Assembly: GCA_021769885.1 (NCBI GenBank)
Contig: JAETSA010000004.1
Coordinates: 1 to 64,000, forward strand
DNA: 64,000 nucleotides
Direction: 5' to 3'
Source of the DNA: Bacillota bacterium
Lineage (GTDB): Bacteria > Bacillota > Clostridia > Oscillospirales > Acutalibacteraceae
Part shown: positions 1 through 54,956 of the stretch, one piece after another
How positions within the stretch are numbered: the stretch's first letter is position 1
How the letters are laid out: each line of letters opens with the position of its first letter
Program-made: the position numbers and the translations under genes
The notes under the pieces: model-generated
The model's database searches: none
Told to the model about the DNA's origin: nothing
The model's input: only the letters and a program-made list of their open reading frames with translations

Positions 1-867
1 TATATTCTGAATAACGAAAGGTATATGGGTGATGCTCTGCTCCAAAAGAGCTATACAACCGAAACCTTACCGTTCAGAAAGAAAAGAAATAAAGGCGAAC
101 TGCCGAAATACTATGTGGAAAACAGCAATCCGCCGATTGTCAGCCGCGAAATATACTCATCAGTACAAGAATTGCAAAAGGCAAGGAAAAAACTTTGCAG
201 TAAAAACAAAAACATATATCCTTTGTCGGGGGTTATACGATGCCCTGACTGCGGACGGACATTTAGACGGCAAATCATTGAAAATACGGCATATTGGCTT
301 TGCTGCGGTAAAATGGCAGGTGCTACGGAATGCAGACCGCTAAGGTTGAAAGAAACAGCCGTATATGAAACCTTCACAATGCTGGTTCAAAAATTAGCGG
401 ATAATCGAAAAATCTTATTCGGTGATTTAATCAGGCAAGCTGAAGCAATGCAAAACAGAACATCAGACAATATAGATGTAATACGCAGAATTGATAAAGA
501 AATTGCCGACCTTGCCGCACAGAATCTTATAATCGCAAGGCTTCATACCAACGGTGTGTTAAATCCTGCGGAATTCTCTGCGCAGTCGTCTGAGATAAAT
601 AATAAAATCAGCACGCTCAGAACAAAAAGACGGCAAAAGTTATCGGAAGATGAAAATGATGTGTGGCTTGATACGCTGAAAAGTCTTAATGAAATCTTCG
701 AAACTTATGAACCGAGCAACAATTTTGATGAAGAGCTGTTCGAAAAAATTGTAGTTGGCATTACTGTGAACAGCAACGCAGATCTCACATTTAAACTCAT
801 CGGTGATATTGAACTCACAGAAGAAATTCCGCTGAAAGGACGGTGTCGCAAACGTGAAAATTCGTAA
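1..867 (+). CDS. Large serine recombinase, C-terminal part (5' end outside window)
   Basis: The frame is open from base 1, so this is the C-terminal part of a longer protein; ATG at 25 is internal. The first visible residues (LNNERYMGDALLQKSYTT) match the end of a recombinase domain (PF07508 type). A zinc beta-ribbon follows, with CPDC near visible codons 81-84 and further cysteines near 101-110, then a coiled coil. This is the DNA-binding half of a large serine integrase; the resolvase domain with the nucleophilic serine would lie upstream. It overlaps the next recombinase gene by 14 bases, which suggests co-translation. Family assignment is secure; whether the full protein is catalytic cannot be seen here. 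Confidence 0.9.
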   Translation, partial: YILNNERYMGDALLQKSYTTETLPFRKKRNKGELPKYYVENSNPPIVSREIYSSVQELQKARKKLCSKNKNIYPLSGVIRCPDCGRTFRRQIIENTAYWLCCGKMAGATECRPLRLKETAVYETFTMLVQKLADNRKILFGDLIRQAEAMQNRTSDNIDVIRRIDKEIADLAAQNLIIARLHTNGVLNPAEFSAQSSEINNKISTLRTKRRQKLSEDENDVWLDTLKSLNEIFETYEPSNNFDEELFEKIVVGITVNSNADLTFKLIGDIELTEEIPLKGRCRKRENS

Positions 868-1771
868 TATTCCGTACGGCTATCAATACAAGAATGGCAG
901 TATAGCAATCCAAGAGACAGAAATTAAAATCGTCAAACGTATTTTTACGGAATACCTCAATGGATTATCACTGCTGAAAATTGCAGAACAGCTGAACAAT
1001 GAACATATTGAATATATGCCCGGTGTATGTGGTTGGAATAAATCAAGAATCAAAAGGATCATTGAGGATGAGCGTTATCTCGGTACAAATGGATATCCGC
1101 CGATTATTGACGAAGATACGCATAAAACCTTAATGCTGATAAAATCGGAAAAGAATACGCAAAAAAGTACAAACCGAAAAGCAGATATATTTAATCTCGG
1201 TGTGCCAATATTATGTCCAAAATGCGGCAGTAAGATGTGCAGGCGGCATGACAGCAACCGAAAATATCAGGATTGGTGGCTGTGTCAAAATGATAGCTGT
1301 AAAAATATTATCAGCATATCAGATAACGATCTGATATACGGTATTACCAAATGTTTAAATACAGTCATCAACAATCCCGATATAATTGAAACTGTTACCG
1401 ATGTTGATAAAGAACCAAGATTAGATGTTTACAGATTGAAAAATGAAATCAGTCGAGTGCTTGACAGCCACAGCTTTGATAAAAATATCCTGCGGAAAAA
1501 GATGCTCGAATGTGTATCTTTAGAATATGGTGATATTGATTCGCAAAAATATATATCAAAAAGATTAAAAGCGGACTTTGCAAATGCGAGTCCGCTTATC
1601 AATTTTTCTATGGATTTATTTAACCGCACCGTTAAAACAATTACATTCAGCACTGACGGTGCGGTAAGTATAATTTTAATAAATGATCAGCAGATCGGAA
1701 AGGAGCAGAGCGATGGCACAAACAGCGGTAATGCCTCAGAAATCTGTACACATAATACCTGCACAGGTTAA
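854..1771 (+). CDS. Serine recombinase-like protein lacking the catalytic resolvase domain
   Basis: This 305-residue protein uses a GTG start inside the end of the preceding gene. It opens directly with a recombinase-type helical domain (IPYGYQYKNGSI, then a segment ending GWNKSRIKRIIEDERYLG), followed by a zinc ribbon (CPKCGSKMCRRH with a later CQNDSCKN) and a short C-terminal coil. The usual 150-residue N-terminal resolvase domain with its YxRVS serine is absent, and the tight overlap with the upstream gene leaves no room for it. It may be an accessory DNA-binding partner of the flanking recombinases, or a degraded copy. The 59-base overlap with the next gene supports a retained operon. Accessory role is inference. 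Confidence 0.8.
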   Translation: MKIRNIPYGYQYKNGSIAIQETEIKIVKRIFTEYLNGLSLLKIAEQLNNEHIEYMPGVCGWNKSRIKRIIEDERYLGTNGYPPIIDEDTHKTLMLIKSEKNTQKSTNRKADIFNLGVPILCPKCGSKMCRRHDSNRKYQDWWLCQNDSCKNIISISDNDLIYGITKCLNTVINNPDIIETVTDVDKEPRLDVYRLKNEISRVLDSHSFDKNILRKKMLECVSLEYGDIDSQKYISKRLKADFANASPLINFSMDLFNRTVKTITFSTDGAVSIILINDQQIGKEQSDGTNSGNASEICTHNTCTG

Positions 1772-3350
1772 TATTCAGGATGAAATCAAATCTGCATACA
1801 GACAGCTACGGGTGGCTGCCTACTGCCGTGTATCCACCAAAGAGGAAGAACAGCTGAACAGTTATGAGGTGCAGACAAAATACTACACCGAAAAAATTAA
1901 CAGTGAGCCTAAATGGACTTTAGTCGGAATATTCGCAGATAAAGGTATCTCAGGTACAAGTCTTAAAAAGCGCGATGAATTTAAACGCATGATTAAAATG
2001 TGCAAGCAAGGTAAAATTGATATGATTATTACGAAATCCATATCACGGTTTGCCAGAAACACTGTTGACTGTCTTGAAAATACAAGACTGCTGAAAGAAT
2101 TAGGCATAGATGTATTTTTCGAGGAACAGGGCATCCACAGTACCGATCCAGGTGCGGAATTCTATATCACAATCTACGGCAGTATCGCACAGAGTGAATC
2201 CGAAAATATCAGTGCCAATGTTAAATGGGGCAAGGCACAGAGTGCCAAAGAGGGAAATGTACCGTTCCAGTACAAACGGTTTTTAGGCTATAGAAAAGGT
2301 GCAGACGGCAAACCTGAAATTGATCCCGAACAGGCTGAAACAGTTAAACGAATATATGAGCGATTTCTCTCAGGTGACAGCCTTGCAAAAATCGCAGATG
2401 ATTTAAATACAGACGGCGTGCCGACACCGTCTGGCAAAGGCTCATGGCTCAGAGGAACGATACAATCCATCCTCACCAATGAAAAATACAAAGGCGATGC
2501 GGTGCTTAACAAAACATATATCTCGGACTGCCTTACTAAAAAAGTAAAAATCAATAATGGTGAGCGACCGAAATATTATGTAGAAAATAATCATCCTGCG
2601 ATAATAGACTCCGCTACATTCGGCAGAGTTCAGGAAGAAATGGCACGGCGTTCGGGCAAGCATAAAGTCAAACAGGTCGGGACTAAAACCGAACAAGGGA
2701 AATATTCGGGCAAATACGCTTTAACAGAATTGCTCATCTGCGGAGAATGCGGAACACCGTATCGCAGATGCACATGGACGGCTAAAGGCAAAAAGAAAAT
2801 TGTATGGCGATGCATCAACCGTCTTGATTACGGCAAAAAATACTGTCGCAATTCGCCGAGCATTGAAGAAAGCGTACTGCAAAATGCGATTATGACAGCA
2901 ATTATAGATACAGCCAAGCAAAATGCCGATGTACTCAAAACGCTGAAACTTCACATTGGAATGGGCTTAAACCAAAACGATACTGAAGATAAAAGTCTTG
3001 ATATACAGATTCGCATAGCAGAAATAGACGCAGAATTTCATAAAATGCTGACCGCCATATCCTCTGATACGGTAGAAAATTTTGATGAAGCCAAGGCAAC
3101 GGAACTGATGAATGAAAAAAGCCGATTGGAACAGCAGCTCGCTCAATATGCAGATGCACAGCAGAAAAGAGAAAATGTAAAATCCCGCCTTGATGAAATA
3201 TATACGATACTTGACGGACTCAAAAATCATCCACTTACCTACAATGATCAAATCATTCGACAAATCCTCGAATGCGTAGTAATAGAGTCCAAAGAAAAAA
3301 TAAAGGTTGTATTTGTAGGTGGGTTGGAGGTGGAGCAAGAAATTCAATAA
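1713..3350 (+). CDS. Large serine recombinase / site-specific integrase, full length
   Basis: A 545-residue protein starting at ATG 1713, chosen because AAGGAG lies 8 bases upstream; an in-frame ATG at 1683 has no such site. An N-terminal resolvase domain carries the catalytic serine in AAYCRVSTKEEEQ (Ser41) and the downstream arginine segment SISRFARN. A recombinase domain follows (FLGYRKGADGKPEI, then YERFLSGDSLAKIA), then a zinc ribbon (CGECGTPYRRC with CINR and YCRN) and a coiled coil near residues 415-480. It should catalyse integration/excision of a mobile element through a 5'-phosphoserine intermediate. It is last in a trio of overlapping recombinase genes and directly precedes the AT-rich TIR operon, which is therefore plausibly its cargo. 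Confidence 0.93.
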   Translation: MAQTAVMPQKSVHIIPAQVNIQDEIKSAYRQLRVAAYCRVSTKEEEQLNSYEVQTKYYTEKINSEPKWTLVGIFADKGISGTSLKKRDEFKRMIKMCKQGKIDMIITKSISRFARNTVDCLENTRLLKELGIDVFFEEQGIHSTDPGAEFYITIYGSIAQSESENISANVKWGKAQSAKEGNVPFQYKRFLGYRKGADGKPEIDPEQAETVKRIYERFLSGDSLAKIADDLNTDGVPTPSGKGSWLRGTIQSILTNEKYKGDAVLNKTYISDCLTKKVKINNGERPKYYVENNHPAIIDSATFGRVQEEMARRSGKHKVKQVGTKTEQGKYSGKYALTELLICGECGTPYRRCTWTAKGKKKIVWRCINRLDYGKKYCRNSPSIEESVLQNAIMTAIIDTAKQNADVLKTLKLHIGMGLNQNDTEDKSLDIQIRIAEIDAEFHKMLTAISSDTVENFDEAKATELMNEKSRLEQQLAQYADAQQKRENVKSRLDEIYTILDGLKNHPLTYNDQIIRQILECVVIESKEKIKVVFVGGLEVEQEIQ

Positions 3351-3497: not shown

Positions 3498-4670
3498 ATG
3501 ATTGCGATAGAAACATTACAAAGATATATTACATTATGCGATAATGTTATTTGTAATAATGATTCAAGTGGCGCCGAAACGCTTGAAAATGAAATCATAT
3601 CAGTCTTTGACAATGAGATAAATGGAATTAGAGGCGGACTTTCAAATTACAGCCCTTGTTTTTTAGGCTCAACACCATATGGAACTGTATCTGATAATAT
3701 TGATGTTGATTTTCTTAAGGATATTGCACTTTTGAAAAGCAAACTTCAAGCCGAACTTGAAAAAAATCAGAATGACAAATCAATATCTGTATCAGATAAA
3801 AAACCAAAGAAGGTATTTATAAGCCACGCCACAAATGATAAACCATTTGTGCAACTTATTGTTAATTTGTTGGAAGATATAGGTTTGTCGGAAACTGAAA
3901 TTGTATGTTCCTCAATTCCCGGATACGGAATACCATTGGGTAAAGATATATATGATTGGTTATCTGAACAATTTCAAAATTGTGATTTGCATATTATATT
4001 TATTCTTTCTGATAATTACTATAATAGTGTAGCTTGTCTTAATGAAATGGGTGCTGCATGGGTTCTAAAACAAAAATATGACACGGTTCTTTTGCCTGAG
4101 TTTGATTTCCCTCAAATTAAGGGAGCTATTAATCCGCAACAAATCGGTATCAAATTAGATAGTGATTGTACAGAATTAAATCAACGCCTTAACGAGTTAA
4201 AAGACAGCTTGATTGACGAATTTGAACTTCAATCATTATCCGCAGCAAAATGGGAAAGACACAGAAATGAATTTGTCAATAAGATTGCTTCTGTTTCAGA
4301 GGAAATATGTGATGATGAAACGAGTAATGATTCGAAAAGCCAAAGTTCAATTTCAACGGATGCTGCCGTGTTATTAGCGTATGCTGCTAATGATGAATCA
4401 GGGCGAATCATAATGGTGAGTACTCTAGGCGGTTTATCTGTATGTGCAGGAAAATGGAATTTTGTTGATGCTAATGGTGGTGCCAGAGAGAACGCTCGAT
4501 GGAGTGGAGCTGTTGATGAGTTAGAGAATTATGGCTTAATAGAGGCTGGTAGTTATAAACGTCAGGTTTTTTTAGTGACGCATATTGGATACCAAGTTGC
4601 TGACGAGGTAAAAAAGAAATTAGAAATCGATTTTAATAATTCACCTGATCAATACTTAGTAGAAAATTAA
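3498..4670 (+). CDS. TIR-domain protein with C-terminal winged-helix-like domain
   Basis: 390 residues from ATG 3498, preceded by GAGGGG. Residues 1-100 form an unassigned helical N-terminal region. Residues 104-235 are a TIR domain: KKVFISHATNDKPFV is the betaA/box 1 strand, and SDNYYNSVACLNEMGAAW (171-188) contains the S-x-C-x-x-E pattern with Glu183 in the position of the catalytic glutamate of NAD-cleaving TIR domains. Residues 286-375 (LLAYAAND to a VTHIGYQVADEV strand) look like a winged helix. TIR proteins of bacterial defence systems cleave NAD or make cyclic ADP-ribose signals; activity here is inference from motifs. The gene heads a three-gene operon after serine recombinases. The TIR call is strong, the flanking domain calls moderate. 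Confidence 0.85.
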   Translation: MIAIETLQRYITLCDNVICNNDSSGAETLENEIISVFDNEINGIRGGLSNYSPCFLGSTPYGTVSDNIDVDFLKDIALLKSKLQAELEKNQNDKSISVSDKKPKKVFISHATNDKPFVQLIVNLLEDIGLSETEIVCSSIPGYGIPLGKDIYDWLSEQFQNCDLHIIFILSDNYYNSVACLNEMGAAWVLKQKYDTVLLPEFDFPQIKGAINPQQIGIKLDSDCTELNQRLNELKDSLIDEFELQSLSAAKWERHRNEFVNKIASVSEEICDDETSNDSKSQSSISTDAAVLLAYAANDESGRIIMVSTLGGLSVCAGKWNFVDANGGARENARWSGAVDELENYGLIEAGSYKRQVFLVTHIGYQVADEVKKKLEIDFNNSPDQYLVEN

Positions 4671-4695
4671 CTTCATTCAAGGAGAGCACAAAGTT

Positions 4696-5040
4696 ATGAT
4701 AGTTTTTGAATTTGATAAAGAAGATATTGAATATGCTGAACGTATAAGTGATTTAGCGGAAATGTCATTGTTAATTGAAGATCCGAAATCTTTTAGCAGT
4801 GATCTTAATACTGTAATTCAAATAGGCGTAGAATTAGCACCGTATGCTATAACAGGCATCACATTAATTATTGTAGAATTAATCAAAAACAGAAAGAAAA
4901 TTAAAATAAAGGTTTCGGATGATGGTATTACAGTTGAAGGAGAGGAAGAAAAGGCATTAGAAATTGCAAAGGAACTCATAGCACAAAAGAAAGAGGAAGA
5001 AGCAAAAAAAGTTTTGCATGATCTATTATCCGGTAAGTGA
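4696..5040 (+). CDS. Small one-TM protein, possibly EACC1-like conflict-system component
   Basis: 114 residues with AAGGAGAGC just upstream. An acidic N-terminal half (1-45) is followed by one hydrophobic helix (about 47-63, ending LIIVELIKNRKK). Then come a short beta strand pair, KIKIKVSDDGITVEG (68-82), and a charged helix rich in Glu and Lys. A TM helix, basic stop, strand and helix, encoded beside a nuclease, TIR or peptidase effector, is the architecture described for effector-associated constant component 1 (EACC1) in NTP-dependent conflict systems. The resemblance is by pattern only. It lies 25 bases after the TIR gene and 6 bases before the peptidase gene, so the three are very probably co-transcribed. 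It could tether or regulate one of its neighbours at the membrane. Confidence 0.7.
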   Translation: MIVFEFDKEDIEYAERISDLAEMSLLIEDPKSFSSDLNTVIQIGVELAPYAITGITLIIVELIKNRKKIKIKVSDDGITVEGEEEKALEIAKELIAQKKEEEAKKVLHDLLSGK

Positions 5041-5046
5041 TGTATT

Positions 5047-6195
5047 ATGAATATAGATGATATGGTTTCCAAGTTCGTTGAAATTTCTCGAGCACATAAT
5101 CAAAAAGATGATTTTTCAGAAAATGAATATAATAAGATTAAAACAATATATGATAATTGCCTATCTTCAATCATAAAAAATTTTGATGCAGAATTCATTC
5201 CCAATCTGATTATTTGTAATACTTACAATAAATACAGTACGGTTCTTCCAGTGAAAATGAAACAGAATAAATATAAATACTATGTTTTATATGATCGTTA
5301 TTTAAATGAAATTAACCAGCTGTTTAATACAATTTATTTTGATGAAAATGATGCAGGTCATGACATATGGAAATTATCTTATGAATTATTTGCAGAGGAT
5401 GCTTTGCTTGAAAATGATGAAGTCTTATTAACATATTACGGTTTAAATAAAGTAGCATTAGGTCCTTTTAAAACCAATGTTGGGTCACAGGATTTTTTGG
5501 ATTTTATTAGTGACATTCAAGAATATTACATTATTGGTCATGAATTAGGTCATTGGGTTTACAAAGTGTTAAATCATACTCACACCGATGACTTATTTAA
5601 TATTAATTTTAATGAAAATTGGATTTCGCTACTGAAAGATATACAAGATATTTTATGTGAATTATATACTGAATACGAAAAGAAATTTATTGATAAAGAT
5701 TACGTTATTTTAATTCAAGAACAAAAAAGTATTATTAATGAAAATAGTGGCGTTTTAGAAGAGTGTTTTGCGGATGCAATCGCTTATGCTATAATTTATA
5801 ATTACATTCAGGTGGAATTCAATAACGAAATCAATAAGAAATTATTGGCTGGACAGGCATTGTTTTTGGAAATAATGAATCTTCAATTATTGGCTATGCA
5901 ACATATGACTGTGTCTGAAGAATCGTTTGAATCCTCCGTATCTATTAGATTGGGATTTTTCCGTAATTATGTCGGTCTGTATTTTGAGCAAGTTGAAAAA
6001 TCATTTGAAGAGATGATACAGAATACGGTTGTTAGATATGAGAATAGAATTACGAACTTAATGATAGAATGCTTTAATGACTTAGAGAAGAGAGCAGATA
6101 ATATTTATGATGGTCTGACTGATATCGATGGATTAATAAATATGAGTAAAATTTTAGGATTATCAGACGCATATAAAAATAGTGATTTAATATGA
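5047..6195 (+). CDS. Zinc metallopeptidase-like protein (HELGH ... EECFAD)
   Basis: 382 residues, starting 6 bases after the small TM gene. The zinc-binding motif HELGH is at 165-169 inside a helix (YYIIGHELGHWVYKV), and EECFADAIAYA at 238-248 gives the downstream E-x-x-x-D pattern of gluzincin-type peptidases, the likely third zinc ligand. There is no signal peptide or TM segment, so it should act in the cytoplasm. The rest is helical and AT-rich in codon use, and I could not place it in a named family; an ImmA/IrrE-like regulator-cleaving role is possible but it is larger than those. The neighbours suggest a toxic or signalling-activated protease in a TIR conflict system. The peptidase fold is supported by motifs; the role is inference. 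Confidence 0.75.
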   Translation: MNIDDMVSKFVEISRAHNQKDDFSENEYNKIKTIYDNCLSSIIKNFDAEFIPNLIICNTYNKYSTVLPVKMKQNKYKYYVLYDRYLNEINQLFNTIYFDENDAGHDIWKLSYELFAEDALLENDEVLLTYYGLNKVALGPFKTNVGSQDFLDFISDIQEYYIIGHELGHWVYKVLNHTHTDDLFNINFNENWISLLKDIQDILCELYTEYEKKFIDKDYVILIQEQKSIINENSGVLEECFADAIAYAIIYNYIQVEFNNEINKKLLAGQALFLEIMNLQLLAMQHMTVSEESFESSVSIRLGFFRNYVGLYFEQVEKSFEEMIQNTVVRYENRITNLMIECFNDLEKRADNIYDGLTDIDGLINMSKILGLSDAYKNSDLI

Positions 6196-6307: not shown

Positions 6308-6353
6308 ACAAAACGAAAATCCGTTCTCATAAGAGAGCGGATTTTCGTTTTGT
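6308..6353 (+). terminator. Long-stem intrinsic terminator after the TIR operon
   Basis: The arms ACAAAACGAAAATCCG (6308-6323) and CGGATTTTCGTTTTGT (6338-6353) form a perfect 16-bp stem around a short loop. The T-rich 3' arm makes it a plausible terminator for the peptidase gene, and it is near-symmetric so it may work in both directions. Confidence 0.7.
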
Positions 6354-6364
6354 ATTCTTCATTT

Positions 6365-6452
6365 TTCATTATTCAATATTCATCATTCATTAAATCGGAT
6401 TTTCGTAATGAATGATGAATAATGAAATCGCTCCGCTAATGAATAATGAATA
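6365..6452. repeat. AT-rich inverted-repeat block (ATTCATTATTC-type)
   Basis: The arms ATTCATCATTCATT (6378-6391) and AATGAATGATGAAT (6407-6420) are exact inverted copies, and a third related segment (AATGAATAATGAATAATTG) follows near 6438. Variants of TTCATTATTCA recur through the block. It has no coding capacity and looks like a small dispersed palindromic repeat. Together with the adjacent terminator it fills the 360-base gap between the peptidase and methyltransferase genes. Confidence 0.55.
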
Positions 6453-6558
6453 ATTGATTTGCTATTCGGCTTTTGTTATAATGGTCATAAAGTCGGTGTA
6501 CTTAGACGAAAGAAAATTTATGGATAGACAAATCATTCGAAGCGGAACAGGTGTACCT

Positions 6559-44600: not shown

Positions 44601-44687
44601 TAAAATTCAGTGAAAAAACTCGCGTAGTGGCGGCTTCCCACGCCCGCCACTTGCCAATTAACCTAACACACAGAACCGTCCCCTGTG
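44576..44687. repeat. 112-bp MITE-like element, copy 2
   Basis: Same length and orientation as 43234-43345, with four substitutions. Its left end interrupts the small ORF after the Rhs fragment and its right end interrupts the VirB4 gene on the other strand, so both neighbouring frames finish inside it. Confidence 0.85.
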
Positions 44688-46003
44688 CTACACACCTCCT
44701 GCAAGGTTTCTTCTGTATAAAGGTATTTTCGGCTCTTATCGTAAGTCATAAATTCTTCTTCGCACAGGTTGTAGAAATCTTCCATAATAGGATAATCGGT
44801 TGATTTCATCTTACTGTAATCCGTACTGTCAGTAATGCCAAATCGGGCGTACAGCTTAGAGAGCAGGATTTCAATGGTGTCAATCTGACTGACGCTGAAA
44901 TCCTTATAGGCTCTGAAAAAATCCTTTAGGAAAGCGATATGCTGTGATAGGCGGGTAACCTTTCTAAAAGCTTCCGGTACAAATCCCTCTTGGTTGCGAG
45001 CGCTGTCATCCGATTCTGTATCAATCCGAGTACGCGAATTGGGTGCAGGCACTGCCTGCTCGCTCCATGCTTTCGGTTCTAACGGATTGATGGTGTACTC
45101 GCCGGACAGGAAGTCGATATAACAGCCGCCGAGATTTGAGCAGATTTCCTCGTATTCCGACTCGGGATCAAGACACAAAACACTTTTGCCCGATTCTCGG
45201 ATATTGGTGAGTATCAGCTTTAAGAGATAGCTTTTTCCCTGACCGCTGTTGCCGAGGATGAGGATATTGCTTGTGGTTTTATCTTCTGCTCTGCGGTCAA
45301 AGTCCGCAAGGATGTTTGTGCCGAATTTATCCCTGCCGATATACAATCCCTGCGGATCGGTTTTGCCAGAGAAGTTAAAGGGATATAAGTTTGCAACCGA
45401 GCTTGCAGGCAACACACGCTCATACTGCGCGCCAAACTGATTTGCGCCCACAGGCAGAACAGAGAGAAAACCTTCTTTTTGCCGTAAAGTCAGCCTGTCT
45501 ACCGATATTTTGGAACGAGTCAGTTCCATTGCAATTTCACTCTGTAATTCTTTCAATGCGTCCATACTTTTGGCTTTCAGTTCGATAAACACGGAGCAAT
45601 GGAGCAGAGGTTCACGGTTTTTACGAAGATTCGCAAGCAATTCCACCACATCTTGAAGATTGCCCTCTGCCTCAATGGTTTCATTCATATCATTGCCGCC
45701 GCTTTTCAGCTTGTTTCTGCGTGTAGCATTCTGAATGATTTTTCTCTGCTCCATACTTTCTACAAGCCTATGGTAAATGCGCAAAGTTACGCCATTGCGG
45801 TCGGCAAGCTGTGATAAAATTGCTTGTTCCTCAGTAGAGGGCGGATATTCTCTTATCGCCCATACACAGCGGTAGCTGTCACCGAGGATATAATGGTCGG
45901 AAAGAAATTTGACCGTGCCGGGCAGGATCATATCGAAGAAGTCCTTAGTGCGGATTTCTTCCATTTGTTCGGGCGTAAGCTCCTTTTGCTTTTTCTTTAT
46001 CAT
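44663..46003 (-). pseudogene. VirB4-like conjugation ATPase, C-terminally truncated
   Basis: 446 codons, of which the last eight come from the 112-bp repeat. The TraG/VirB4 N-terminal domain (FLSDHYILGDSYRCVWAIREY) precedes GQFGAQ-like NQFGAQYERVLPAS and the Walker A GNSGQGKSYLLKLI, then LCLDPESEYEEIC (a Walker-B-like strand) and GEYTINPLEP. Full VirB4 ATPases of this group have about 800 residues in total with the RecA-like C-terminal half containing the main Walker B and arginine finger; these are absent. It would have powered the type IV secretion channel. The truncation coincides exactly with the repeat boundary. Confidence 0.85.
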
Positions 46004-46604
46004 ATATTTTCACCGTCCTTGTCAAAATCGAAAACTGTTCGCCGTCTGTATCGGGTATTTGTTCGCCGTTCATACTCGCGTCAAAATACAACGCAAGAAA
46101 GCGTTTGATATCTGCTTTTTGCATACGCCGTACTTCAAATCCCTGTTCGGATATGACCTTTTCAATGCGATTTGCCGCTTCAAAGGTTTGCTTATCCTTC
46201 GTGTTTTTCAGTCTTGCGATAAACAAAAACTGCCGTGCCGTAGCCATTTCCATTTGGATATGATCAAGAAAGTCTATATCTTTTTTAATAATCTTTCTTA
46301 CCTTCGGATTGTGTTCTTCCGACAATCTCTCCTGTAAATATGATTTGTTATCATCAAAACATTCAGAAGAATCAGTACAGGTGACTTCAATATCGGGAAC
46401 AGCAGACAGCACCATCATTAGATGTCGGATTTTAATTTCGATATTCACGTGTGAGAGCACCGAAATATTTGTAGGGGCTACGAGGTAAAATAAAAGCTCG
46501 CCTTTATTCGTGGCGAGTCCGTATTTTGTAAAGGTTTTGATGCCGATTAAGTCCTGCACCGAGCGTCCTTTTCTTTTTTTCTGTCGTTTTTCGTTCTTTG
46601 CCAT
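45945..46604 (-). CDS. Conjugation protein, VirB4 N-terminal-like companion
   Basis: 219 residues from ATG 46604 with GGAGGTGAGC upstream. A basic N-terminus (KNEKRQKKRKGRSVQDLIG) is followed by TKYGLATNKGELLFYLVAPTNISVLSHVNI, a strand pattern seen at the start of TraC/VirB4 proteins, and a helical region with EMATARQFLFIARLK. It has no nucleotide-binding motif. It overlaps VirB4 by 59 bases and follows PrgI directly, and such a gene occurs between the two in Tn1549-like elements. It may be a split-off N-terminal domain of the ATPase. Confidence 0.65.
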   Translation of the reverse strand: MAKNEKRQKKRKGRSVQDLIGIKTFTKYGLATNKGELLFYLVAPTNISVLSHVNIEIKIRHLMMVLSAVPDIEVTCTDSSECFDDNKSYLQERLSEEHNPKVRKIIKKDIDFLDHIQMEMATARQFLFIARLKNTKDKQTFEAANRIEKVISEQGFEVRRMQKADIKRFLALYFDASMNGEQIPDTDGEQFSILTRTVKIYDKEKAKGAYARTNGRNPH

Positions 46605-46611
46605 AGCCTGC

Positions 46612-46872
46612 TCACCTCCAGTAGTATTCTTGTTGTGTGCTGATAAAATATCTAACAGCATATTTGATAAAATCAAGTACCGTTGTGTCATCCATGCGGA
46701 TGGTTAAAAAGCCGTAACACAAGGTCTCGGCGGCAGGTACTACAAACCTTGTCTGCACCAAAATCACAATAGATAAAAGTGCCGCAATACCCAATATGCA
46801 AAAATCTTTCAAACCCCAAAGCCACAGATTTGCAGTGGCTTTTAAGTTTTGGGGATATAAATATTGTGTCAT
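46612..46872 (-). CDS. PrgI family conjugation membrane protein
   Basis: 86 residues. It opens with YLYPQNLKATANLWLWGLKDF, followed by two adjacent TM helices (CILGIAALLSIVILVQT and a second near 45-60), then a helix ending FISTQQEYYW. PrgI/VirB3-like proteins connect the secretion channel with VirB4 at the inner membrane. The gene ends eight bases before the next start, inside its ribosome site, showing co-translation. It precedes the VirB4 genes as in other Tn1549-like elements. Confidence 0.8.
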   Translation of the reverse strand: MTQYLYPQNLKATANLWLWGLKDFCILGIAALLSIVILVQTRFVVPAAETLCYGFLTIRMDDTTVLDFIKYAVRYFISTQQEYYWR

Positions 46873-46945
46873 TCGTTATCACCTCGCAAAATAAAAAAGA
46901 CACCGTTTGCATAAAACGATGCCTTTTTAACCTGTTTTATTGTTT

Positions 46946-48331
46946 TTAAAGTATCAAGCCTGCCGACTGCTCTTCATCTTCGTCAATGTCTTCAGAGTTA
47001 ATAATATCCTGAATAACCGCTTGACCGTTTAAAATGAAAGCCTTTATATATTCTTTATCTACATCAATGGGTATTTCATTTAAGCAATTGTCAATCAGTT
47101 CCTCTGTAATCTCGGGCAGTTTCATTTCTCTGTACATTTGACAGGCAGTATCATTTTCTTTAAGAAACTCACGAAAGAAGCGAATCAACCCGTCACCCTC
47201 ACGGCGCACATTATCGGGGTAGCCTCTTGATATAAGCGCAATGTTGTTATCATAATTGGGAGCCATTGAAATAATTTCTCCGCTTTTAACATCCCGCAGA
47301 AATCCGAAATTTCCCGTATGCCTATCCATATTGTAACAAACGGAATCAAGCCAAATTATTTTCAGATACTGTTCTGCTAATTTAAGCGAAATATCATAAA
47401 TCTTTTCAAAGCAGTCATTATAATCCTCGTTCTCTCCCATAATAGAGGAGATAGGCTCAAAGTTTTGCTTTGCGCCGTTGGTAAAGTCGCTTGTACGAAT
47501 ATATCCATCGTGCATTTCATAATGTGCCATATCTAAACCCAGCTTTTCACCGAGAGTATAAATAAAAAGCTCTGAAAAATATTCACTGTCCGTTCCGCTT
47601 TTATACATCCACCATTTACCGTCTATAAGCCGCCAGCATTTTTCATAGCTGCCTATATTAGTAAGCTCAGGTGTTCTTGAGGGTTTGCGTGAAAATCCGT
47701 TTGGGTCACCCCTAAGCGCAAGTGAATCAAAATAGTTTTCCTTAAAACGGATGTCTTCATACAGGGCAGTTGAGCCTTCCGGCTTAAACCAATATCGGTC
47801 TGTCACCGTTGCCGCATTGACGGATAATGCTGTCTGCGCATCATCAGCAGTGCGAAGACGTAAGGCTTTTTTCAAAAGCCTTGAATTTGTTCTGTGTGTG
47901 TCAATAGCACGGGAGGCAAGCCAGCCTTCCACGTACTTTGTTCTCTGCAAATACAAGGGAAGAAGACGTTCGTTGCATTCGGTGATTTCGCCATTTTTTA
48001 CAGTAGCTATGATATTGTCTTCTAGCATAATATATCCCGTTATATTAAGCATATTTCTTGCCGCCTTTCTTTTAAGATTTGATTCCCGTATTCCTTCGGG
48101 GGTTTCTTTCAGAGTTTTCAGTTCTTCCTGCAGTTGTTTTCGCTTTTCAACCTGCGACGTTATTTCTTCAAATTCAGAGGCCTTAATATATCTGCTCTTA
48201 AGCTTGCTGTTTTCCATCCATTGCAGATAAAACCGTTCTTTTCCGCAGATTATTTTCTTGGAGATATATCCTGTCGGCAGAGCTGAAAGTTCATTTTCAA
48301 TTTGTTTAATGCGGTTAGTAATATCTTCCAT
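46946..48331 (-). CDS. HipA-like kinase
   Basis: 461 residues. A coiled-coil N-terminus (1-85) is followed by a linker, then a HipA/PI3-kinase-like fold: GKWWMYKSG (Lys244, likely ATP-binding), SEYFSELFIYTLGEKLGLD, the catalytic loop YNMDRHTGNFGFLRD (Asp336, Asn341) and the metal-binding APNYDNNIAL (Asp361). These are the active-site features of HipA and CtkA kinases. HipA toxins phosphorylate GltX and induce persistence, but no HipB antitoxin is adjacent. It interrupts the VirB6-PrgI order and has its own promoter and a lower-GC composition, so it is inserted cargo. Target unknown. Confidence 0.8.
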   Translation of the reverse strand: MEDITNRIKQIENELSALPTGYISKKIICGKERFYLQWMENSKLKSRYIKASEFEEITSQVEKRKQLQEELKTLKETPEGIRESNLKRKAARNMLNITGYIMLEDNIIATVKNGEITECNERLLPLYLQRTKYVEGWLASRAIDTHRTNSRLLKKALRLRTADDAQTALSVNAATVTDRYWFKPEGSTALYEDIRFKENYFDSLALRGDPNGFSRKPSRTPELTNIGSYEKCWRLIDGKWWMYKSGTDSEYFSELFIYTLGEKLGLDMAHYEMHDGYIRTSDFTNGAKQNFEPISSIMGENEDYNDCFEKIYDISLKLAEQYLKIIWLDSVCYNMDRHTGNFGFLRDVKSGEIISMAPNYDNNIALISRGYPDNVRREGDGLIRFFREFLKENDTACQMYREMKLPEITEELIDNCLNEIPIDVDKEYIKAFILNGQAVIQDIINSEDIDEDEEQSAGLIL

Positions 48332-48366
48332 TTCGTCGCCTCTTTTCTTCCGTTTTATTTAATTAT

Positions 48367-48395
48367 ATTATAACCTATATTTACGCAAAAATCAA
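48367..48395 (-). promoter_or_regulatory. Promoter for the HipA-like kinase gene
   Basis: On the minus strand TTGATT (48390-48395), 17 bases, TATAAT (48367-48372) is near consensus and lies 36 bases before the start codon. It suggests the kinase is transcribed independently of the conjugation genes around it. Confidence 0.72.
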
Positions 48396-48427
48396 TAGGT
48401 TATGATGAGCACAGATAAAAAACTCTT

Positions 48428-49360
48428 TTATTTTGCAGCTCTTGCTACACTGCGGCTTAAATTAACTGCCGTTGTAGTCGCATGAACAACGCTCATCATA
48501 TTAACCTTTACGCTTGAATCAAGACCGAACTGCTGTGCAATTCTCGGCACTTCATTTGCCGCAAGCATTATGCCGAGTCCTAAAAGCATATTGTTGGGGA
48601 AGGTAAGAAGTCCGAGATACAGGAGAGTTGTCTGCATAAACGCTGTTAAGCAAATAGCCGCTACCTGTTTCATCCACTGATTGAATCCGTCCGCATATCC
48701 TCTCGGAACACTGAACATATATAAACTGCCCACAGCCATCTGAATAAGCAGGATACCGCCACGCTTAATATTGGCAAAAAATATCTTGAACACGCAGTAA
48801 GCAAACGCTATGAGAGCAAGCAAATTAAACAGATTAAAACTCACCTGTGTTGATACTTCAAAACTGCCTTGAAGAACACTCATGCTTTGATTTGCCAGAT
48901 CAAGCGATTGCGTTCCTGCAAAAATTCGGGACAAATCCTGCGAGAAAGTGTTTTGCAGACTGATGCAGAATTTGTACAGTTCTACAGGTACAATACCGAT
49001 AAGCGAGCAGGCAAAAAAGCCCTTTAAAATATTGATTGCGGTTGTTTTAATATTTGCTCTGCCGCACTGATATTCAATCGCCACATCAAATACGGCAACG
49101 ACAACACCTGCAACAAAAAGCGCCCAGCCGAACAGCGTAAAGAGCTTGATAGTAGCCTGAACCCAGTCAAGAGCAAAAATATCAGCACCCATATTGCCCA
49201 TCATCGTGAAAAAGTCTGCAACTGCACCGTAAATTGTTTCGTAAAACCACTGCAGCATCGTGTTCCAAATAACATTGGATATCTGCTGTCCGAGCGTGTC
49301 AAACACATCGCCTATTGCATCTCCTAAACCGGAAATTATGTCGCCTAACCAATCAAACAA
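48428..49360 (-). CDS. VirB6/TrbL-like conjugation membrane protein
   Basis: About 310 residues. A TTG start at 49360 is chosen because GGAGG lies 8 bases upstream; the GTG at 49369 would lie within that site. Six hydrophobic segments alternate with glycine-rich and amphipathic stretches: FGWALFVAGVVVAVFDVAIE, LIGIVPVELYKF, LLALIAFAYCVFKIFF and MQTTLLYLGLLTFPN. The gene type is the CD1112-like VirB6/TrbL of Clostridia elements, forming the inner-membrane channel of the transfer machine. It follows the DUF3852 gene with an intercistronic hairpin between them. Confidence 0.85.
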   Translation of the reverse strand: MFDWLGDIISGLGDAIGDVFDTLGQQISNVIWNTMLQWFYETIYGAVADFFTMMGNMGADIFALDWVQATIKLFTLFGWALFVAGVVVAVFDVAIEYQCGRANIKTTAINILKGFFACSLIGIVPVELYKFCISLQNTFSQDLSRIFAGTQSLDLANQSMSVLQGSFEVSTQVSFNLFNLLALIAFAYCVFKIFFANIKRGGILLIQMAVGSLYMFSVPRGYADGFNQWMKQVAAICLTAFMQTTLLYLGLLTFPNNMLLGLGIMLAANEVPRIAQQFGLDSSVKVNMMSVVHATTTAVNLSRSVARAAK

Positions 49361-49376
49361 GTGATTCACCTCCGAT

Positions 49377-49403
49377 CAGCTGTCCTGATTCTCAGGACAG
49401 CTG
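49377..49403. other. Intercistronic hairpin between DUF3852 and VirB6 genes
   Basis: A perfect 12-bp stem (CAGCTGTCCTGA with TCAGGACAGCTG) around a three-base loop lies in the 54-base gap. There is no U-run on the minus strand, so it is more likely an mRNA stability or partial attenuation element than a full terminator. Confidence 0.5.
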
Positions 49404-49414
49404 TGTTCAATCGG

Positions 49415-49747
49415 TTAGAGAATAGTCCAAATATACAGCGGTGCTGTGAGGGTGAAAATAAGGCAGGCGAACAAAATTGCGGGTGCGGTAAATTCAAACT
49501 GACCGTGCTTTCTGTAATCGAAATATGCCGTTCCCAATTTCACAAAAAACAAAATCGCAAGAATCATATCCACAACAGGGAATACAACGTTGTTGACTAC
49601 CGTCTTAATCTGCGACTGTGCGGCTGTCCAAGTGCTTTCGATTGCGGTTGCCACATCGCCTGCGGCAAAAGCGGTCATCGAAAACATGGAAACGATAACC
49701 GTTAAAAGAAGCGCACTGAGCAGAATTTTTAAATGTTTCTTTTTCAT
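49415..49747 (-). CDS. DUF3852 family pilin-like conjugation protein
   Basis: 110 residues. A signal peptide (LLSALLLTVIVSMFSMTAFA, cut before GDV) is followed by an amphipathic helix (ATAIESTWTAAQSQIKTVVN) and two TM helices with the conserved FFVKLGTAYFDYRKHGQFEF between them. Size, signal peptide and two-helix layout match VirB2-like pilin subunits; the DUF3852 label is from pattern memory. It is encoded next to VirB6 in Tn1549-like elements. A role as pilus or channel subunit is inference. Confidence 0.75.
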   Translation of the reverse strand: MKKKHLKILLSALLLTVIVSMFSMTAFAAGDVATAIESTWTAAQSQIKTVVNNVVFPVVDMILAILFFVKLGTAYFDYRKHGQFEFTAPAILFACLIFTLTAPLYIWTIL

Positions 49748-50085
49748 AGAGTTTTCTCTCCAATCTTTTTATTGATTTCATCGTCCCGAACCTTTCTGAC
49801 AGGTATATTGAGGCTTTTACAGAATTGCATTTCAGCCTTCATACCTTCGCTCACCTCATCGCCGAAAATCCACATTTCATCACAGAACCAAAGTAAACTG
49901 AGCCCGGCCGCCATACCGATTTCCCGTTCTTTAGGAATACTATCATTCAGGCATAGGGCATAGAAATGCGGTACGACCGGAGCCGTACCGCAAAGAAGCG
50001 CATACCGTGCATATTGCTTCGCTTTTTTCAGGTTCTCTTGAATGTTACCGCCGAGAGGAGCGCAGATATATACCTTTTTCATCAT
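49744..50085 (-). CDS. DUF4406-like (deoxyribosyltransferase-fold) protein
   Basis: 113 residues beginning KKVYICAPLGGNIQENLKKA; the strand-loop YICAPLGG and the later LLWFCDEMWIFGDEVSEGMKAEM fit the nucleoside 2-deoxyribosyltransferase-like fold of DUF4406 proteins, common in phages and conjugative elements. Activity is unknown. Its ATG overlaps the stop of the adhesin gene and its end overlaps the start of the DUF3852 gene, so all three are coupled. It probably serves nucleotide metabolism or regulation within the element. Confidence 0.75.
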   Translation of the reverse strand: MMKKVYICAPLGGNIQENLKKAKQYARYALLCGTAPVVPHFYALCLNDSIPKEREIGMAAGLSLLWFCDEMWIFGDEVSEGMKAEMQFCKSLNIPVRKVRDDEINKKIGEKTL

Positions 50086-53000
50086 TCGTCATCTTCATCC
50101 TTTTTCTTTTTGACGTAGATAACACCTGCGGAAATGAAACCGCCGATTGCTATTGCACCAAGACCGATTAAAAAGCCTTTGTTTTCGCTGTTTCCTGTGT
50201 TCGGGATGTTGGGAATAACGGGAACAGGAGGCTTTTCGGGAATACGGTCATTGACTGCTGTAATTTCAATGAGCTGTTCGTTTTCGGTAACAGTAATATG
50301 ATGAATTTCATCACTCATAAGATAATTTTCGGAAGGCTTAAGTTCCTTTACAATCCAATCACCGAATGGAATATTTTCAAAGGTGAAGATACCGTTTTCA
50401 TCTGATTGGGCAGTAAGGATTGCTTTTTCTGCTGTGAATTCAGTTTCATCCGCACGGAATAAACCGAAGAGAGCACCCTTGATTGGCTCTTTGGTTTTAC
50501 GGTCGATTTTTAAGCCTTTCACAGTGCCGTAAATCAAATCATTTTTAATAGGCTCACCGTTATTCACCTTGATTTCTACGAGTGCAGTACTCTGACCTGC
50601 ATACTCAAAAACCACAGGATATTTTTCATCCGAAAGGATATAGTGACTGTCTGTGCTGAGTTCCTTGATATACAGTTTTGCACCTACAGGGACATCTGTC
50701 GTAAACATTACTTTACCGTTTTCATCACAGTTTACGATTTCAAGCAAACCGTCTTTCGGAATAACAGAACCGTCTGCGGCTGTCAAATCTTCTGCAGCGA
50801 ACAGTCCGAACTGCACGGAAAGGATTTCATTATTCATTCCGATTTTGAATTTTTCATCTTGTGCAAGAATTTTTTCAAGGCTGATTTCGACTTTTTGACG
50901 TTCGTTATATACCTCGGCTGTTGTTTCAGTAATGCTTACGTCCTGTCCGGCATAGGTCAGCTCGACAGAATGAACTTCATCGCTGATTACCATGCCGAAC
51001 GGTGCAATTTTTTCGCGCACCTCAAATTTTCCGAGATACAGCGGTTCGGTTGTGGCAGTTCCTGTACTGTCTGTTGTTATAGATGCCACGATGTCGCCCT
51101 TGGTATAACGGAGTGTACCGTCAAGGGTGATAATATCTTCGGCGGCGGTGATTTCAAAAATTGCACCCTGTAAGCCTTTTGTTTCATATACAGGCTGATA
51201 AATCCCATCGGATTCAGAAACGGAAGAAAACACTTCGCCCGATTTGCTGACGGTAATCGTACCTTTCTGAGACGTATTGTGTTTTTCTACCGTTACAATC
51301 GTCTGACTGCCGTCAATCTTAAACGGCACAGGACTGCTGTCAAGGACATATCCGCAACAGGCATTCTGCTCTATAATTTCATAATTTCCGTAAGGCAGTG
51401 CTTCAGGCAGCATGAGCTTGCCGGTGCTGTCGGTGTAATAAATGTCGATATACACAGGCGTCGGGTAGTTGATATGCTGAACGATATATTCGCCTGTATC
51501 CGTATTGCGGACTTTAAAGCCGATGCCGGAGGCAGGAATGATTTCACCTGTTTCGGCGTCTTTCTTCACAATCTCAATAAGCGATTTAAAGATGGCATTG
51601 TTAATGAGATAGCGATAAATTTCGCCGTCTTCATTTACGAACACATCAAAGGCGGGTATCAATTCTCTGCCAGCCCAACCTTTAGTCTGTTTTACCGTAT
51701 AAATACCGTAAGGCAGTTCTTTACTCTCTGCAAATCCGTTTTCATCGCAGACAAGAATATCCCGTTCAGATTCTCTTGCTTTGGAATATGAATCTGTCTT
51801 TTTAAGATACACTTCAAATTCGGCACCTTTTTCTGGTGTTTCAATTTGTGTCGAACCATCATCGCAATGCTTGATTATGGCGATTTTACCTTTTTGAACA
51901 GTTTCAAGAGCCTCGAGCGGAGATGCAAGGTTATATTCCGCTGTATACAATTTTGCTTCTGCACCGATATGCAAGGAGTCCGTATTGAGCAGATAACCCT
52001 CGCTCGGTGTAATTTCACGCAAAGACCAATCATCACCGCAAACATAATATTTTGTAGTAAACTGACCGTTTTTGTCGGTCGTGTAAGTGTCAATCAGCTG
52101 TTCGCCTTTATATACACCGTACTTTGCGCCTGCAAGAGAGGCATCGCCCTGCGGATTTCCTGTTTCTTTATCACTCTTGGTTACAGTAAGATGCCATTTT
52201 TTTAGGATGTTATTAAAAGATTTATTCGTTACTTTATTCCACTCAATATCTGCTGTCTGCTTTTCGGGGACAACATAGCGAATTGCTGTGTCAACCTCTT
52301 CAAGGGTATATCCTGTGCCGATGAGAACATCTTTAAAATATGCCTTGCCGTCACCGCCGACTACAGCGTATTCATCGACTGCCAAGCCGGAAAGCGATGT
52401 GCCGAATAAATGGAATTTTGCACCCTCGCTGAGTCCGTCCTCACTGGTTTTGGTAACCGTCAAATCGCCGCGCTTTAACACATTGCTGAAAGTGACGGTT
52501 GCCGTTTGACCGCTGACCACCGTTACACGGCGTGTTTCCTGCGGCTCATATTTGTTTTCCACAAGCTCGGTTACGGTGTAAACGCCGGGAGTGAGGTTAT
52601 CTACTTGAATTTCACCTTGGCTGTTTGTTTTGACAGTCTGATGGATACCGTTGCCTGTAATTGTAAAGGAAACACCGTCAACTTTACCGTCCTCACTTGT
52701 TTTCACAATTTTGGCAGAACCATAGGATACTTTTAAATTCAAATAGCCTTTCACAGGATCGTTTACCGACTGCGTATAGGTCACCATATCCTGTGAGCCT
52801 TTGCCGGGCACATATATGCCATCCGTCCAAGTAATTAAGCCTTTGCGCGAAGAATTTTTCTTTTCCGCTGTAACAGTGATTACATTTTCGGGAGCCGTCT
52901 GTGAAGTTACAGTCAGCACATTGCCGTTCACTTGCAGAGAAACGCCGGGATTATTTGATTTGAACGAATACTCTGACAGGACATCATTGCTGTCGTGGAG

Positions 53001-53750
53001 CACGGAGATATACTGTTTACCGTCCCAAGACATTTCGACAGTTTGCGCTTTGGAAGTTGACCTTGCAAAAAAGCTTGGCACTTTTGAATGATTATACACA
53101 GACTTTTCAATGCGTGCATAGTACTGCATAATCTGATTGCGAATAGGATTGTTTGTTCGTATAAATTCCGTTACTCTGTTAAAGCTGCCTGTATCCACAT
53201 GGTTAAAATCATAATCCCTTTCGCCGACAATCACTTCCCAAATCAAAAGCTGTGTAGCTATGGCATGAGCAAGCTTGTCTGCACCTTCGGAATTCTGTGT
53301 TCTCCACTCGGTTGAAACATTTCCCGTATATCCGTACTGCAAAATTCTGCCGATAAAAAGCTTTATACTATCTGAATCAATGGTTTTGTTGTATTCGGGA
53401 GGAAAATTGTTCCAAAAGTTTTCATCCTTTTGCGTAAAGGTATCTCCTGTATGCTGTCCCGTCCCCGGTTCAATGCAGTAGCAAATTTGACCTGTATAGG
53501 AGCCCATTGTTCGAAGCAGGAGCTTATTGCTTGCTCCGCCTGTATGCCAGCCGTTCATATATTGCAAATCTTCATGACCCCATCCCGAACGGTTTGCTTC
53601 GCCGCTTCTCGGGAATTCCACAATACATACATCGGATTTTTCACCGACCGCGGCGAATGCGGTAATTGCGCCTGTGGAAAACAGATTTATACAAAGCATT
53701 GCAAGTGCCAAAAGCAACGATACTGCTTTTTTGAAATTTTTTCTTATCAT
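50082..53750 (-). CDS. Surface adhesin with thioester domain, SpaA/VaFE-like repeats and sortase signal
   Basis: 1222 residues. A signal peptide (MIRKNFKKAVSLLLALAML to ITAFAAV) precedes a thioester-type domain containing GQICYCIEPGTGQ (candidate reactive Cys). Many Cna-B/SpaA beta-sandwich repeats follow, each with an E-x-Y/N-type linker; examples are GVSFTITGNGIHQTVKT, AKFHLFGTSLSGL, ALFGLFRADETEF. The wall signal is IPNTGNSENK, a TM helix, then KKKKDEDDE, an I-P-x-T-G variant of LPxTG. It would be anchored by sortase and mediate mating-pair contact or host binding. No sortase gene is in the window. It is cargo of the conjugative element. Confidence 0.88.
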   Translation of the reverse strand: MIRKNFKKAVSLLLALAMLCINLFSTGAITAFAAVGEKSDVCIVEFPRSGEANRSGWGHEDLQYMNGWHTGGASNKLLLRTMGSYTGQICYCIEPGTGQHTGDTFTQKDENFWNNFPPEYNKTIDSDSIKLFIGRILQYGYTGNVSTEWRTQNSEGADKLAHAIATQLLIWEVIVGERDYDFNHVDTGSFNRVTEFIRTNNPIRNQIMQYYARIEKSVYNHSKVPSFFARSTSKAQTVEMSWDGKQYISVLHDSNDVLSEYSFKSNNPGVSLQVNGNVLTVTSQTAPENVITVTAEKKNSSRKGLITWTDGIYVPGKGSQDMVTYTQSVNDPVKGYLNLKVSYGSAKIVKTSEDGKVDGVSFTITGNGIHQTVKTNSQGEIQVDNLTPGVYTVTELVENKYEPQETRRVTVVSGQTATVTFSNVLKRGDLTVTKTSEDGLSEGAKFHLFGTSLSGLAVDEYAVVGGDGKAYFKDVLIGTGYTLEEVDTAIRYVVPEKQTADIEWNKVTNKSFNNILKKWHLTVTKSDKETGNPQGDASLAGAKYGVYKGEQLIDTYTTDKNGQFTTKYYVCGDDWSLREITPSEGYLLNTDSLHIGAEAKLYTAEYNLASPLEALETVQKGKIAIIKHCDDGSTQIETPEKGAEFEVYLKKTDSYSKARESERDILVCDENGFAESKELPYGIYTVKQTKGWAGRELIPAFDVFVNEDGEIYRYLINNAIFKSLIEIVKKDAETGEIIPASGIGFKVRNTDTGEYIVQHINYPTPVYIDIYYTDSTGKLMLPEALPYGNYEIIEQNACCGYVLDSSPVPFKIDGSQTIVTVEKHNTSQKGTITVSKSGEVFSSVSESDGIYQPVYETKGLQGAIFEITAAEDIITLDGTLRYTKGDIVASITTDSTGTATTEPLYLGKFEVREKIAPFGMVISDEVHSVELTYAGQDVSITETTAEVYNERQKVEISLEKILAQDEKFKIGMNNEILSVQFGLFAAEDLTAADGSVIPKDGLLEIVNCDENGKVMFTTDVPVGAKLYIKELSTDSHYILSDEKYPVVFEYAGQSTALVEIKVNNGEPIKNDLIYGTVKGLKIDRKTKEPIKGALFGLFRADETEFTAEKAILTAQSDENGIFTFENIPFGDWIVKELKPSENYLMSDEIHHITVTENEQLIEITAVNDRIPEKPPVPVIPNIPNTGNSENKGFLIGLGAIAIGGFISAGVIYVKKKKDEDDE

Positions 53751-53827
53751 ATTTACTTTTCATCCTTTCTGAACGCAAAAAAGCGCACCGCTTTTTTGCG
53801 ATGCGCTTCAGATTTGGCTATTTTGTT

Positions 53828-54499
53828 TTACGCGTAGCCGATATAGATTTCATAGGAGTTATCCGAAACCTTTTCAGCCCATATCCACACAGACGTAATG
53901 TCATCATCTCTTGCGTAACGGTTCAGTCTGTTTTGAATATCCCGTTCAAGATATTTGCATTGTGCGTTGGCAGGTATAGGATTGTCCCAACAGTCTGTTG
54001 CCGCGCTGTCAAGCCTTAGTCCTACGCTTTGTGCATAGTTTTTTGCATATCTAATCCAATAATCTATATCAAAATTCTGAACGGGTGGTTCTGTTGGTTT
54101 TTCCGTTATACTCGGCGGTGTTTCAGGTCGAGTGGACTGAGGCGGAGCGGTCGTGGGTTTTGTCGGCTCAACAGGCTTTGGCTTTTGCGTTGCCGACTCC
54201 TTTGGCGGTGCAGACGAATCGGAATTTGTTTTTCCTTCTGTTTGCGTATGCGGTTTTGTCAAATTCTCTGCTTTTTCTGTCAGCATACGTGTTTCAGATA
54301 CGCTTTTCGTAGGATTATCTGATTCTGCCGAAGCTGTTGTTGCCGTTTCTGTGACGGTAACATTTTCATCGGATTCGGTTGCTACTTGACCGACAGCAGA
54401 CCGATTTTCACTTTCTACAGAATTGATTTTCCATTTTGCACATCCTGTAAGGCACAGTATCAGTACAAATGCGATGATAAAAATATGGTTCAATTTCAC
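53828..54499 (-). CDS. Lipoprotein with Thr/Pro-rich linker
   Basis: 223 residues from GTG 54499 (AGAGGTG upstream). A lipobox, ILCLTGC, follows a short hydrophobic leader, so the cysteine is probably lipid-modified. Then comes a long Ser/Thr/Pro/Glu-rich spacer (TKPTTAPPQSTRPETPPS) and a folded C-terminal domain (YWIRYAKNYAQSVGLRLD with a DCWDNPI loop). The structure is that of a wall-spanning lipoprotein displaying a small domain. Similar genes lie beside the adhesin in related elements. Function is unknown. Confidence 0.75.
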   Translation of the reverse strand: MKLNHIFIIAFVLILCLTGCAKWKINSVESENRSAVGQVATESDENVTVTETATTASAESDNPTKSVSETRMLTEKAENLTKPHTQTEGKTNSDSSAPPKESATQKPKPVEPTKPTTAPPQSTRPETPPSITEKPTEPPVQNFDIDYWIRYAKNYAQSVGLRLDSAATDCWDNPIPANAQCKYLERDIQNRLNRYARDDDITSVWIWAEKVSDNSYEIYIGYA

Positions 54500-54573
54500 G
54501 GGTATGCACCTCTGCTTACAGGATACCGACAAAATCGGAAAAAGTCCAGCGAAAACCGAGATTTTTACGGAGA

Positions 54574-54933: not shown

Positions 54934-54956
54934 AGTATTTTTCTCCTTATCTTTCA

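Follow-up and report, generated by a model that had tools for sequence, protein, structure and literature searches.

An SpbK-type TIR gene and two orphan genes downstream of a serine recombinase in a member of the Acutalibacteraceae

Closest described systems

The closest described relative of the locus reported here is SpbK of Bacillus subtilis (PDB 9PHB), a single gene with no obligate partner which, as a passage of PMC11984713 states, is carried by ICEBs1. Its N-terminal domain recognises a phage portal protein. In the parts of the two papers on which we draw, the E192Q replacement abolishes both NAD loss and protection (PMC11984713), and the N191R, G194R and W197A proteins are defective in filaments and in NADase activity (PMC12847820). 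The locus lies in a stretch of 64,000 nucleotides at the start of contig JAETSA010000004.1 (the window) and consists of a TIR gene, a small-protein gene and a peptidase gene. The TIR protein has in common with SpbK the TIR domain, the NEMG motif with its putative catalytic glutamate, the assembly residues and an apparent location in a mobile element. It differs in an N-terminal domain that has no sequence match in SpbK, in an added C-terminal winged-helix-like domain and in the two tightly linked genes that follow.

A TIR domain is also present in ThsB of the Thoeris system. The match of the window TIR protein to ThsB in PADLOC is weak (6.4e-5) and that to spbK is far better; at 1e-10 PADLOC assigned none of the 51 other scanned ORFs of the window to ThsA. 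The phage-exclusion protease Lit is a HExxH metallopeptidase that acts in phage defence. Up to an E value of 1, PADLOC did not match the window peptidase to Lit, and a weak match was obtained only from a protein of another locus (L128, see below). The two-gene EACC1 conflict system, described in part of PMC7159879 as known mainly from actinobacteria, resembles the last two genes of our locus in its layout, with the small-protein gene 5' of a peptidase gene. The EACC1 protein has a single TM helix between flanking alpha+beta parts, and the window small protein has one borderline hydrophobic segment. The latter has no match to the EACC1 profile, and its partner carries a zinc-peptidase motif and is not a caspase. 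No paper naming such a trio was found among the open-licence PMC literature.

The locus and its gene products

The three genes of the trio are intact ORFs on the same strand (Table 1), separated by gaps of 25 and 6 bases, and the TIR gene starts 147 bases past the end of a large serine recombinase gene. This recombinase gives the trio what is, by sequence, a mobile-element context. It is the last of three tandem serine-recombinase ORFs at window positions 25-3350, the first of which lies at the contig end; the Resolvase catalytic domain had no Pfam match in the first two. Since window and contig share their first base, the left part of the element and its left border are outside view. The GC content is 34.1% in the TIR gene, 31.0% in the small-protein gene and 27.5% in the peptidase gene, against 46.2% for the window, and the tight, low-GC trio after a serine integrase that an earlier note on this DNA had described is confirmed. 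The GC3 values are alike across the trio (0.233, 0.209 and 0.232) and unlike those of the three recombinase ORFs (0.36-0.40); a 686-aa ORF at 9585 has 0.48. The TIR genes of two loci that lack the downstream pair have equally low values (0.233 in L050 and 0.209 in L051), so the composition of the trio argues neither way strongly.

Table 1. Coordinates of the features of the locus in the window
Feature	Position	Strand	Basis
Large serine recombinase, 555 aa	1683..3350	+	Pfam Resolvase, Recombinase and zinc ribbon (7.8e-35, 1.4e-26, 3.8e-14)
TIR protein, SpbK-type by sequence, 390 aa	3498..4670	+	PADLOC spbK, PDB 9phb, alignment with 20 relatives
Codon of Glu183 (putative catalytic)	4044..4046	+	Invariant in 21-row alignment, aligned with SpbK E192
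C-terminal winged-helix-like domain, 108 aa modelled	4344..4667	+	Model pLDDT 92.3, pTM 0.86
Small orphan protein, 114 aa	4696..5040	+	One borderline hydrophobic segment, residues 45-63
Orphan putative gluzincin-type metallopeptidase, 382 aa	5047..6195	+	HELGHW (165), EECFAD (238)
Terminator-like hairpin, 20 pairs	6308-6353	+	After the third gene

The three genes are presumably co-transcribed. A ribosome-binding-like AAGGAG was seen by eye in the 25-base gap before the small-protein gene and no such site of note before the peptidase gene, which suggests that translation of the latter is coupled. The hairpin that follows the peptidase gene is one of 2 terminators found by a scan, a count not above that in shuffles (mean 1.7), and it forms the start of an interspersed repeat (window 6308-6540). 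Eight more similar places occur in the same genome, and weaker ones in several members of the genus.

The TIR protein is composed of three parts, namely an N-terminal domain (residues ~1-95), the TIR domain (~100-265) and the C-terminal winged-helix-like domain (~283-375). Pfam TIR_2 matched residues 106-200 (E 3.3e-10), the PADLOC spbK profile residues 76-264 (1.3e-70), and the SpbK sequence of PDB 9phb residues 100-263 only (3.5e-27, phmmer). Glu183 lies within the motif CLNEMGA, which starts at residue 180. An alignment of 21 rows was made from the window protein and 20 of the 21 relatives that bear the winged-helix-like domain (L078 was left out). In it E183, N182, G185 and W188 correspond to E192, N191, G194 and W197 of SpbK and are invariant in 21/21 rows, as is the whole of NEMGAAW; moreover, all 21 rows, each of which was scanned, matched the spbK profile. 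We therefore retain the earlier assignment of a TIR domain with Glu183 as candidate catalytic residue, in a protein of a phage-defence family. Judged from its sequence this protein is an SpbK-type NADase, and it would probably deplete NAD. At 1e-5 a TIR query matched 16 of 398 genomes of the family, a count that takes in its own genome; with the exception of G666, which belongs to the same family, the matches in the others were partial and mostly over the TIR domain.

The N-terminal domain (residues 1-95) gave no match to the N-terminus of SpbK with phmmer, which is a weak test, because the TIR protein of L061 likewise matches SpbK solely in its TIR part. This domain resembles the N-termini of the TIR proteins of L050 and L051 and also a 194-aa protein of L015 (38.8% over 80 residues, 2e-10). 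The gene for the latter sits, as read by eye, between mod-like and res-like restriction genes.

A model of the C-terminal domain, built from residues 283-390 of the window protein and 20 relatives, has the order helix, hairpin, helix, hairpin, helix. Foldseek returned many MarR-type regulators and ribosomal proteins, which we take to be winged-helix proteins. The query TM-scores were 0.27-0.49 among the 50 fold matches listed and none had an E value of 0.001 or below, so the domain is called winged-helix-like. It was found in 21/80 SpbK-like loci (BLASTP E 1.9e-5 or better; best 80 of 224 relatives) and in 2/245 genomes of the class, its own included. The linker that joins it to the TIR domain, near residues 266-282, is acidic and aligns poorly.

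The same domain was also seen apart from the TIR gene. It is found in a separate ORF in L111, with a weaker match (BLASTP 0.008), and in L089 and L090 an ORF of 61-66 aa directly 3' of the TIR gene resembles a detached winged-helix domain (L090 by eye). In a Caulobacter plasmid (L018:3147-6083) a TIR gene is followed immediately by a gene whose product has a DUF4062-like part (E 0.012, short of the cut-off) and, behind it, the winged-helix-like domain.

The second gene of the trio encodes a protein with a borderline single hydrophobic segment (Kyte-Doolittle 19-residue mean 1.8). It belongs to no family in the profile collections, Pfam and PADLOC included, in which only weak sub-threshold listings appeared, and its weak matches in 10/179 other genomes (E 0.0036-0.07) were taken as chance without inspection. 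The small protein was searched in fewer collections than the peptidase, phages and genome contigs not being among them; within the collections searched it is, by sequence, an orphan. Membership of the EACC1 family was considered and rejected, PF19953 being absent from the Pfam listing at E up to 10, with the reservation that HMMER filters can drop weak matches. A scan for EACC1 in 50 genomes of the phylum of an Olsenella MAG matched 2, one of them barely (24.1 vs a cut-off of 23.6 bits), and both frames, as read by eye, overlap other, more plausible genes.

The third gene encodes a protein in which HELGHW and EECFAD represent a HExxH motif and a downstream glutamate ligand motif. Residue shuffling, repeated 200,000 times, produced some HExxH in 1960 cases, HE[LIVMF]GH in 24 and, in 122, a HExxH with E..[AFS]D 40-130 residues further along. 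The pair of motifs, which the earlier note had already pointed out, is thus above chance. No match was found in Pfam, NCBIfam, PADLOC or PDB, and a single-sequence structure model was unusable (pLDDT 35). Among whole genomes the peptidase was secure only in its own (1/291 of the class, 1/398 of the phylum, 1/39 of the genus and 1/250 of the family). A degenerate DNA pattern for HE.GH...E.FAD picked out 59 stretches of viral DNA. The motif fell within an ORF in 58 of them, but phmmer showed no relationship to the peptidase and the best BLASTP E was 0.91. Searches with short peptide patterns, for the peptidase as for the small protein, detect close relatives only. The protein is an orphan in the collections searched and, judging from its motifs, likely to be a zinc protease.

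Weak matches to the peptidase beyond its own genome numbered 3 in the phylum set (E up to 0.1) and 8 in the family set (E 0.0026-0.03). Both sets were taken as chance. In the phylum set L021 was inspected, and L022 and L023, both with internal stops, were not. In the family set inspection of L191, L192, L193 and L195 revealed no HExxH within any frame at least 150 residues long, and the four others were uninspected.

Relatives of the TIR gene and their neighbours

When genome contigs were scanned with three aligned full-length TIR proteins, 224 relatives came up, and the 80 best of these were retrieved together with flanks of at most 6 kb on either side. By BLAST, relatives of the small protein or of the peptidase were present in 0/80 of these SpbK-like loci (best 80 of 224), among which six winged-helix loci have short right flanks of 752 to 1760 bases (L052, L058, L060, L062, L078, L080), and more divergent peptidases would escape such a search. 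The pair is absent next to the TIR gene in G147 and also in L050 and L051, whose TIR proteins are the nearest full-length relatives, with 63% and 61% identity. As in SpbK, then, no such partner was detected beside these relatives, and the window has two further genes. An undescribed three-gene system, as had been proposed, is not borne out. The earlier note had taken as refuting either that the families do not occur together in other genomes or that they match a named system, and for the TIR gene both were found.

Two chance-level matches to the peptidase in the 80 loci were rejected, one in L063 (E 0.17, no HExxH by eye) and one to a 71-aa ORF in L082 (E 0.45, no HExxH). A tRNA-Leu gene lies ~200 bases 3' of the TIR gene in L050 and ~360 bases 3' of it in L051. 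Just upstream of the TIR gene of L051, at positions 104-334, there is what looks by eye like the last part of a tyrosine integrase, and the TIR gene with its downstream tRNA-Leu reads as cargo at an integration site.

Of the 774 ORFs with at least 150 aa in the 80 loci, 16 carry the HExxH motif. A same-strand ORF of this length is found within 200 bases downstream of the TIR gene in 37/80 loci, and the sole HExxH case among them is that of L128, in which a 393-aa HECAH protein is encoded 68 bases 3' of an SpbK-like TIR gene. This protein has a weak PADLOC match to Lit (9.7e-5) and gave no useful alignment with the window peptidase (best E 0.43). The spacing of 40-130 residues between the two motifs is found in the window peptidase and not in the L128 protein; the one other ORF to show it belongs to L091 and is 3.1 kb away from the TIR gene. 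One plasmid match (Streptomyces, 25%) and no viral relative were obtained for the L128 protein, which we regard as a lead only. The TIR gene, the HECAH gene and a PDC-S28 helicase gene are closely spaced in this locus (L128:5992-10796).

In 26/79 loci that extend at least 400 bases downstream, the TIR stop is followed, at a distance of -30 to +60 bases, by the start of a same-strand ORF no shorter than 60 aa. Ten downstream proteins were chosen by hand for PADLOC, so that the counts are biased by this choice. They comprise type I restriction proteins (3; L083, L088, L093), PglZ (2; L085, L095), a CD-NTase (L108, Treponema MAG) and PD-Lambda-3_B (L126, 2.6e-13), and 3/10 had no match (L098, L067, L121). 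In a second set of ten neighbours on either side of SpbK-like TIR genes, also hand-chosen and equally biased, PADLOC recognised PglX (L070, L103), PglZ (L070) and, upstream, PDC-S02 (L053), type II restriction (L058) and SIR2-type ThsA matches (L060, other strand). PDC-S28 and the weak Lit match both came from L128, and two neighbours gave nothing. An SpbK-like TIR gene can thus be placed beside other defence genes. In eight loci (L083, L088, L093, L085, L095, L070, L103, L108) the TIR genes are placed directly upstream, as if they were embedded backup effectors. The main text of a paper on BREX accessory effectors (PMC12839542) contains no word beginning with TIR, and for this reason the SpbK-like genes in BREX loci may merit attention.

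Possible roles of the three genes and other features of the window

We lean towards the explanation that the locus comprises an SpbK-type abortive-infection NADase and a separate accessory pair, likely a second defence unit. The variable N-terminal domain of the TIR protein would sense a phage product, the TIR domains would come together to cleave NAD+, and the infected cell would halt prior to phage release. The winged-helix-like domain would most likely restrain the protein, aid its assembly, or bind DNA or a partner. As the TIR protein has pair-less relatives, we infer that it does not need the two downstream genes in order to act. These genes, for the small protein and the HELGH peptidase, would be read from the same transcript as an accessory pair and most likely constitute a further defence unit that is as yet undescribed, much as restriction or BREX genes accompany relatives of the TIR gene. 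In several loci an SpbK-like TIR gene lies directly upstream of restriction, BREX or CD-NTase genes, and the orphan pair may likewise be a defence unit that travels with the TIR gene; the operon layout, the similar composition and the association suggest a defence role for the peptidase or the small protein, neither of which has a match.

Against this explanation, the similar composition and the spacing of 25 and 6 bases could mean that the three genes arrived together and function together. A single system is possible, without support from co-occurrence. In such a three-part system the small protein would anchor the peptidase at the membrane, and on infection the peptidase would cleave either the TIR protein, for example in its acidic linker, or an inhibitor, and so switch on the NADase, or else it would be a second effector. 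The short gaps on a single strand, a hairpin solely after the third gene, the similar GC3, the poorly aligned linker and the HECAH gene so close to the TIR gene of L128 all speak for it. We nevertheless consider it unlikely, as relatives of the pair are missing from all 80 loci, including those of both full-length relatives, and the L128 protein neither aligns usefully with the window peptidase nor shares its motif spacing, and has a PDC-S28 helicase as neighbour. More doubtful still is a protease-gated TIR protein, with a new sensor domain and an NADase restrained by the winged helix, that the tethered peptidase would free by cleaving the linker on infection; if true, this would make it a bacterial NADase switch that is activated by a protease.

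The adjoining serine recombinase is consistent with a pair that serves the mobile element, the peptidase regulating excision or transfer as would ImmA, a protein of ICEBs1, and a repressor gene could lie in the part of the element that is off the contig. However, the peptidase matches no Pfam peptidase family and ImmA is usually about half as long, and we hold this role to be improbable. The winged-helix-like C-terminus, weakly matched by regulators of the MarR type and of other types, would also fit a TIR protein that is mainly a DNA-binding regulator, with the peptidase as effector. With the TIR catalytic and assembly residues invariant and the fold matches as weak as those given above, we find this very improbable, the least so favoured of the readings.

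The window protein and the relatives bearing the C-terminal winged-helix-like domain represent a clade of what are, by sequence, SpbK-type NADases, three members of which have an N-terminal domain of their own kind. Members of this clade are partnerless in some genomes and elsewhere lie directly upstream of restriction, BREX and other defence genes. The clade offers sensors that can be tested, and it puts forward the small protein and the peptidase as possible parts of a defence unit not yet described.

PADLOC was also run on the rest of the window and listed 15 families for the set as a whole; it covered 51/56 ORFs, all but those of the trio and a further two that overlap. A second low-GC block, at window 44663-56606, is probably a mobile region. 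Of its ORFs, 4/10 scanned had no match; the block contains genes for a HerA-like ATPase, a HipA_C protein, TrbL, SpoVG and a D12 DNA methylase, and it also holds a 1222-aa thioester/SpaA surface protein.
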